From Liolophura sinensis (lineage: Eukaryota > Mollusca > Polyplacophora > Chitonida > Chitonidae): DNA of 64,000 nucleotides. Every line of letters starts with the position of its first letter. The first letter of the stretch is position 1. Below are positions 57,901-60,900 of this stretch, in pieces. The stretch is taken from the NCBI RefSeq assembly GCF_032854445.1, contig NC_088306.1:15001386-15065385 (forward strand), in the 5' to 3' direction. Made by a program: the position numbers and the translations under genes. A model generated the notes under the pieces. It was given only the letters and a program-made list of their open reading frames with translations, had not been told where the DNA came from and ran no database searches.

Positions 57901-60900
57901 GCACAAGCGGTTCCAGGTATCTCGACTTCCAGGTGAACGCTCTATCCATCTGCCAACATAGATGAGACATGCCATTCATGATCAGCCTTCGGAAACAAGG
58001 AAACTGGCAAAGTACACTGAAACTTTTAATGCAGAAGCAACTCCGAACGAGTTAACATATTGGCAATGTCTTGGCAGGTGGTGATGGTACATGCCTGTTA
58101 CACTCTGATAATGTACATACCTGTTATACTCTGATAATGCACATACCTGTTATACTCTGATCATGCACATACCTGTTATACTCTGATAATGCACATACCT
58201 ATTATACTCTGATAATGCACAAACCTGTTATACTCTGATAATGTACATACCTGTTATACTCTGATACTGCACATACCTGTTATACTCTGATAATGCACAT
58301 ACCTATTATACTCTGGTAATGTAAATACCTGTTATACTCTGGTAATGTAAATACCTGTTATACTCTGATAATGCACATACCTGTTATACTCTGATAATGT
58401 ACATACCTGTTATATTCTGATAATGCACATACCTGTTATACTCTGATACTGCACATACCTGTTATACTCTGATAATGCACATACCTATTATACTCTGGTA
58501 ATGCACATACCTGTTATACTCTGATGATGTACATACCTGTTATACTCTGATAATGCACACACCTGTTTTGCTCTGATAATGTACATACCTGTTATATTCT
58601 GATAATGTACATACCTGTTATACTCTGATAATGCCTCGCATCTCTTCTCGTAATCTGTGATGTATAAAGCATTGGAATCCTGCAATGACAAAATCATCTT
58701 GCCTATTTATATGTGCACATACAGTATTTAAGTTCTGCTATAGACCCTGCAAAATGTGTGCTCACTCACATTCACCATAGGGGGACAAAAACAAGGAGCC
58801 TATTAAGCAAAGGATTTGACTACGGCCTGGTTTATTGATTGGTGTTTTATGCTGTACTTAAGAATATTGACGGCGGCCAGCATTATGGTGTGAAGGAACA
58901 GAGCCCGGGGGAACACCCACGACCATCTGTAGGTTGCTGTAAGACCTTTCCATGGAGGAAGCCAGCAAAAACTGGACTTGACCTCATACCGACCGCATTG
59001 GTGGAGGCTCCTGGGCCACTGCACCATGCTGGCGTGCTCGCCCCATTGGCCATGGAGGCCCCTGCCTGGTTTATTGGAGAAGAAATCTGGACAAATTCCA
59101 GACAAATCTGCCTTATCACTATGGGTATGTAAAGTCAATAAAACGAGCTTAATTGTAACGTAGAACCTTAACTTTGTTTCTTAATTTATTTGATTGTTAT
59201 TATATATGGCATACTCATGAAAGAATTTATGAACACCATACTAAAGAAATAGGAACTTACACAGAAAGGTCTATGGGATGAGGAAACGGGTGTAAACCAC
59301 TGATCTCTGGCAACTTACTGACAAACATTCCCACACGTGGTGCACAGATGTGCACACCATACTGGTGGAAGACAAATGGTGTTCGACGAACGTCAGACTT
59401 TGCAAATGATCACATGAGCATACTTTATGTCACTAAGGCCCTATGGACAGTGAGCACAGGGGAATGTACTATAAACTACTGGCTCAAGATTTATTTATTT
59501 ATTTATTTCATTGGTGTTCCGCAGGTTGCTGGAAGAACTTCCCCACATACTGCAGGAGAGGAAGCCAGCATGAGCTGGACTTGAACTCACAGCAACCGTA
59601 TTGGTGAGAGACTCTGGGGTCATGACGATGCGCTAGCGCGCTAACCAACTGAGCCACGGAGGCCCCCCACTGGCTCAAGACTTCACTTGAACACATACCT
59701 TCGGTGTACTTGTGACAGAAAGACAAGCACCTTAAACCACTCAGCCCTGACTCCTCCACACTACATAACATCACATATTAGGAATAATCAGGTCGCTGTC
59801 ATAGAGATGTTACATTAACTTCACATGTATTGGTACTTTAATTTTGGTAATTCCTCAAAATCAAATCATCATTTTATTGCTTTTTTATTGTTGAGAAATA
59901 GTTGTACCTTGAGCTTAGCTTTCTGCACACTGTAGACATGACAGCTTGTGAGGACAGACAAGGTGGATTTGAAGGCTTCAAGTCTCTCTTCAGGTAGAAC
60001 AAAGCAACGGTGAACCTAAACAATGGAGAAAAAAAGAAAAAACATCTTCAACTTATTTACTTCACAGTAAGACTTTTTCGCTGCAGCAATCAGCTGTGTG
60101 CGACAGGAAGTCAGTCAGTCAATAGGCGGGTTTGAAGGTCAAATGCTTTACATAAACCTGAGCTGCGTGCAAGATGACATGAAATCTTACCATGCCCACG
60201 CTTCTAAGAAAGGGGTCATTAATGGATGGTTCTGACATCAAAATTTGAACCATGATTTTAAACCTTATTTTTAGACCCTGGAATCTAAAATTTTGCACAC
60301 CTCATCAGTGCTATCGTCAGACTAAAACTGTATCAAATTTTTTACTTCTGGTATCAAAAATGAAGTACTGTGAAGAGATTTTTAATTTGAAGGAAATGGC
60401 ATTGCAGATTCATCCCCAGGATCACCATTCACAGTCTGGACACCAGAATCAACATTTAGGCTTCAAAATCAATGTTTTGAGCTGCATGGCCCACTTACCA
60501 CATATCCTTTGTCAGACTTCTTTGTTCCAGATACAAAGTACACGACAGACAAATCGTCATTGTCTTTCTTATTTCTGTGTTTGTCAACGAAGGCATACAG
60601 CATCCTAGATAATAGGAAAAAAACATGAAACACTGAGGAATGACTGGGCAAAGTAAAAAGCAAAAGACTGTTGGATAAGATAAAGATGGGTTTTAGTTCT
60701 TGTCTAAAATGACAGGGACTTTTTCTCAGACTTGTGTATTTTCCCCTTTACATTTTCATTGCTTAAACACTATACTCATTATTGTACTTTTAATATATGC
60801 CTAGGATAAGACCATATACCAGGCAAACTTGCAGAGCTGTCTCCAGAGGCTGGTGACTTTCACAATAGCACAACTTTATGCCGTTACTATACCACTCAGC

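Follow-up and report, generated by a model that had tools for sequence, protein, structure and literature searches.

The 26-bp minisatellite at the 5' splice site of POLD3 exon 5 in the chiton Liolophura sinensis is, in our view, quite probably a mirage, that is, a tandem duplication straddling an exon-intron junction that was tolerated and later expanded within the intron, and not a device of POLD3. Our analysis started from the window, the whole stretch of 64,000 nucleotides containing this gene, to which all positions refer unless stated otherwise, and was extended to splice sites elsewhere in the genome.

The donor array of POLD3 exon 5

The first-pass annotation had named the gene POLD3, and this assignment is borne out by protein comparison. 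When the first 172 residues were used as query, human POLD3 chains from the PDB aligned with chiton residues 3-151 (E about 4e-42), and the Pfam family CDC27 (PF09507) matched the 454-residue product with E = 1.4e-66 over profile positions 1-443 of 443. The exons were placed by eye, guided by the human POLD3 sequence (Table 1). The alignment with the human chains has no gap at the exon 5/6 junction, and exon 5 has gained no length over its human counterpart. Because the product of the first donor is gap-free against the human protein and fills the CDC27 profile, it is use of this donor that, by translation, yields the conserved, human-colinear POLD3 protein.

On the minus strand, the 3' end of exon 5 reads GCATTATCAGAGTATAACAG, followed directly by the intronic GTATGT. 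TRF run on the window placed an array at 58089-58634 (period 26, 21.0 copies, 91% matches) and found none beyond 58634. The earlier extent of 58091..58679 therefore holds only in part: the array is real, while the remainder of exon 5, at 58635-58679, is not repeated. Cutting the minus strand into 26-mers, starting at 58634, makes the first unit the 20 terminal nucleotides of exon 5 followed by GTATGT, which confirms that the unit consists of the exon end and its donor, as had been claimed. The consensus, GCATTATCAGAGTATAACAGGTATGT, is matched identically by units 1, 4, 7, 14, 18 and 20, and beyond unit 21 any likeness to the unit ceases. A chance resemblance of the repeat to the junction could be ruled out, because the first unit is made up of exon end and donor and has the consensus sequence.

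In 20 of the 21 units a GT reaches a score above 3 (approximate donor matrix), in agreement with the about 20 near-identical donors described before; unit 21 has GC where the others have GT. The authentic donor 9-mer, CAGGTATGT (CAG/GTATGT), is found in 13 of the 20 GT-bearing units, authentic site included, and the remaining 9-mers are CAGGTGTGT (once), TAGGTATGT (three times), CAGGTATTT (twice) and CAGGTTTGT (once). Among the 19 donors downstream of the authentic one, 12 are identical to it and six are in frame. Reading the frames of all 19 confirmed the previous claim that the donor three units downstream would add 78 open in-frame nucleotides; this extension alone is open and in frame, a stop being met from the other 18. 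The donor columns of the units are no better kept than the other columns (changed in 7/171 versus 18/323 positions, Fisher p = 0.53), as expected if the copied donors do nothing. Selection on these copies was considered and rejected, column conservation giving no sign of it.

Table 1. Features of POLD3 in the window and arrays copying myosin splice sites
Feature	Position	Strand	Description
POLD3 coding region	48806..62652	-	14 exons, 454 aa; open frame and GT-AG at all introns
POLD3 exons 1-5	62652-62590, 61497-61442, 60604-60499, 60015-59908, 58679-58615	-	coding exons in listing order
POLD3 exons 6-10	56800-56683, 55452-55300, 54756-54696, 53518-53434, 53026-52983	-	coding exons in listing order
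POLD3 exons, last four of 14	52510-52418, 51607-51395, 50793-50693, 48904-48806	-	coding exons in listing order
POLD3 exon 5	58615..58679	-	65 nt; authentic donor AACAG/GTATGT after 58615
26-bp minisatellite	58089..58634	-	21 units, each copying 20 nt from the exon-5 end plus 6 intronic nt; GT donor kept in 20
+78-nt extension	58537..58614	-	added if donor three units downstream is used; sole open in-frame extension
Second POLD3 array	50783..51055	-	37-41-bp units copying exon-12 acceptor TTTAG/TGACAG
72-bp array	50129..50686	-	begins at intron base 7 after exon-12 donor; donor not copied
24-bp array	53332..53422	-	begins at intron base 12 after exon-9 donor; donor not copied
Myosin donor arrays			L042, 66 bp; L037, 31 bp x 18; L034, 31 bp x 6.2; L062, 124 bp x 4.3
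Myosin acceptor arrays			L052, 95 bp x 3.1; L044, 32 bp x 12.7

Copied splice sites beyond exon 5

The second array of POLD3 is the acceptor counterpart of the exon-5 donor array. The motif TTTAG/TGACAG occurs in it six times, as five upstream copies and the authentic site at 50793, accompanied by one more diverged copy, so that 2 of the 26 splice sites of POLD3 are copied. The neighbouring gene LCMT1 lies head to head with POLD3, with its first exon at 62940-63220 on the plus strand. None of the eight splice sites of the five LCMT1 exons that were located with the human sequence is copied. Elsewhere in the window, the unit of a 40-bp array at 6003-6285 (plus strand) holds the donor-like GAGCAG/GTGCGTGA, with a score of 9.1; a 30-residue frame upstream had no Pfam match, and no exon could be demonstrated there. 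A 716-codon open frame, BTB/kelch-like by eye, occupies 43346-45493 in an otherwise exon-poor stretch.

In 20 random 10-kb pieces of the genome, minisatellites (47 arrays with a period of 9 or more and a score of 100 or more) make up 26,038 of 200,000 bases (13.0%). The summed unit lengths divided by the number of bases, which is the fraction of boundaries that one random array birth would straddle, amount to 1.19% at a score of 50 or more (64 arrays) and to 1.07% at 100 or more. The same sample contains a RasGAP-like exon whose donor lies in a 40-bp array of 2.1 copies; the Pfam match of this exon (E = 0.008) falls under the family cut-off. Ab initio exon finding in these 200 kb yielded 11 exons versus 2 in a reversed control, too few for a test.

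Splice sites not chosen for repeats were obtained from a myosin-head search, which gave 81 matches. We took 68 exons, with 300-400 flanking bases on each side; the 13 matches left out lie mostly within long open frames that appear intronless. Exon ends were set by simple scoring with approximate matrices. This gave 68 acceptors and 63 donors, since in five exons no site reached the donor score of at least 3 that was taken as believable. Judged by eye, mirages are present at 4 of the 63 donors and 2 of the 68 acceptors, that is, at 6/131 splice sites (Table 1), and in L062 as many as 115 nt of coding sequence are repeated along with the donor. The last nine exons fetched contained no mirage. 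Two candidates were rejected in the analysis as a whole: at the myosin donor L036, TRF sets the array edge 5 nt into the exon, yet the true repeat begins about 35 nt into the intron and leaves the donor uncopied, and in another piece of the genome (L016) the array stops about 25 nt short of a likely acceptor.

When the exon-5 array was compared with the genome at the DNA level, the matches were the array itself and three weak places. At one of them (L003, 1431-1697 of that piece), an array begins 14 nt inside a sacsin-like exon (PF25794, E = 1.5e-18) and copies its donor. In general, the boundary-copying arrays of the myosin, sacsin-like and RasGAP-like genes are unrelated in sequence to the POLD3 unit.

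Origin of the array and competing explanations

The most likely history would begin with a tandem duplication of the last 20 nt of exon 5 together with 6 nt of intron. The slippage at the junction proposed in the first-pass annotation is in part upheld: the exon side is the likely source, given that the first-donor product is gap-free against human POLD3, and slippage or another local tandem duplication is a likely cause. The outermost copy would then have been kept as exon end and donor, leaving the message unchanged as long as the first donor was used, and the intronic copies would have grown to about 21 through ordinary array turnover; the variants common to units 6-8 and 13-15 suggest block duplication. 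Since the mRNA is not altered by a duplication across a donor, provided that the first donor stays in use, such arrays would survive where duplications inside an exon cannot. The identical donors of the array presumably differ in position alone, and the spliceosome would be expected to define exon 5 by the one adjacent to the exon. Leakage to later donors should mostly be removed, because 18 of the 19 lead to a premature stop. The conserved POLD3 protein and the amphioxus reports discussed below both suggest that the exon-side copy wins. The array would accordingly be no special acquisition of this gene but a tolerated side effect of the great abundance of young tandem duplications in the genome. 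Against the mirage reading, one downstream donor leaves an open frame.

That open frame belongs to the case for a functional role. The extra donors could compete for U1 snRNP, with copy number tuning exon-5 splicing or adding 26 residues to POLD3, an explanation that would draw on the 19 additional donors, 12 of them identical to the authentic one, on the open in-frame 78 nt, and on tandem repeats at exon-intron boundaries of human paralogs, which can alter splicing patterns (PMC2812944). We nevertheless consider it improbable in view of the stops met from nearly all alternative donors, the unremarkable conservation of the donor columns, the similar arrays in unrelated genes and the amphioxus precedents, reported to occur without interference in splicing (PMC3087553, PMC3902484). 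The earlier proposal, read as a length-variable splicing modulator particular to a replication gene, is not supported, given the same column comparison and the similar arrays at the exon-12 acceptor of POLD3 and in unrelated genes, namely the myosin, sacsin-like and probably RasGAP genes. Less probable still is an origin by seeding, in which a dispersed family of minisatellites with TCAGAGTATAACAGGTATG-like units would have landed at the end of exon 5 instead of arising from it. The sacsin-like array does resemble the POLD3 unit (best score 48, versus 17-29 for 40 shuffled queries), but it was picked as a best match of a whole-genome search, so that its likeness is selected; an array with 102 copies of a 27-bp unit (L073, 5853-8587), which lies downstream of LCMT1 and some 11 kb past POLD3, scores 30, only one point above the shuffles. 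Seeding is also at odds with an exon 5 that is not longer than its human counterpart.

A tolerated duplication leaves room for the question of where arrays are born. Minisatellites of this genome might arise preferentially at splice junctions, for instance via transcription- or splicing-linked events of replication or repair, a view to which we give some, clearly minor, credence. The six myosin mirages among 131 sites exceed the random expectation of 1.19% (P = 0.005), so that chance births alone may not suffice, and against the local background (2.6 sites expected from the density of array edges up to 300 bases away from the myosin exons, with an assumed unit of 30 bp) the excess is borderline (P = 0.049). 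For donors alone, four sites compare with 0.9 expected (P = 0.013). Array edges number 4 in 1,890 bases of the last 30 exon nucleotides before donors (the non-mirage L036 among the four) versus 9 in the 18,887 bases that make up the following 300 intron positions, whereas no enrichment is seen on the acceptor side (1/2,040 versus 17/20,399). Donor-like 9-mers scoring 8.5 or more occur in 6 of 61 units of the random sample, against a shuffle mean of 2.7, with 3 of 60 shuffles as high; however, the excess disappears at a score of 7 (9 observed, mean 6.4) and at 9.5 (1 versus 1.1). The absence of copied sites in LCMT1 (0/8) also speaks against preferred births, and numbers are small throughout. 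Preferred array birth at donors is possible, with P at 0.005 or 0.049 depending on the background chosen. It is tentative, and rather doubtful, to go further and propose that a few per cent of splice sites in this chiton are copied in tandem because arrays arise preferentially at junctions and most of all at donors, the spliceosome picking the copy at the exon edge.

Known mirages and significance of the chiton arrays

By its structure, the exon-5 array belongs with the mirages: its unit spans an exon-intron boundary, 20 of its 21 units carry a copied GT, and arrays of this kind occur in several unrelated genes of the same genome (POLD3, myosins, sacsin-like and probable RasGAP). The taxon differs, a chiton taking the place of a cephalochordate, and taxon is no part of the structural definition. 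Intron gain via tandem duplication of AGGT-containing segments has reportedly been the subject of a study. In the model, such duplications also copy splice signals (PMC3087553); the POLD3 intron, in contrast, pre-existed, and no new intron was seen.

Amphioxus mirages have been described in the genes for Adh3, troponin C, the globins BflGb6 and BflGb9, and PGBD5 (PMC3087553, PMC3902484). Like the chiton array, they are tandem repeats over an exon-intron boundary that affect 5' or 3' splice sites and contain many AG/GT copies, with units ranging from 10-72 bp (Adh3) to about 160 bp, and regular splicing is reported not to be disturbed at the Adh3 and globin genes (PMC3087553, PMC3902484). The chiton case differs in its molluscan rather than cephalochordate setting and in copy number, with 21 copies in POLD3 versus 3-6 in BflGb6 (PMC3087553, PMC3902484). 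Human genes of segmental duplications share the feature of internal tandem repeats at exon-intron boundaries, but there the variable repeats are tied to alternative splicing and to new introns between paralogs, whereas the chiton array was studied at one locus and from DNA alone (PMC2812944). Among the papers listed by our searches, none reported boundary-copying arrays in molluscs, which is weak evidence of absence. Mirages are thus a known kind of array, seen in cephalochordates and with comparable repeats in humans; what is new is their presence in a mollusc and their frequency at myosin splice sites, where they are apparently common.

Arrays of near-identical donors probe what sets the end of an exon when sequence cannot, be it position, exon definition or transcription order. 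Amphioxus has a handful of them; at a genome-wide rate like the 6/131 seen in myosin genes, very many would be available in the chiton, with varied unit sizes and copy numbers, and published chiton RNA data could resolve the choice of donor without new experiments. Should splice junctions indeed be preferred birth places of minisatellites, this genome would constitute a natural experiment, with very many loci, on how one of several identical splice sites is chosen, and it could supply new introns and exons.
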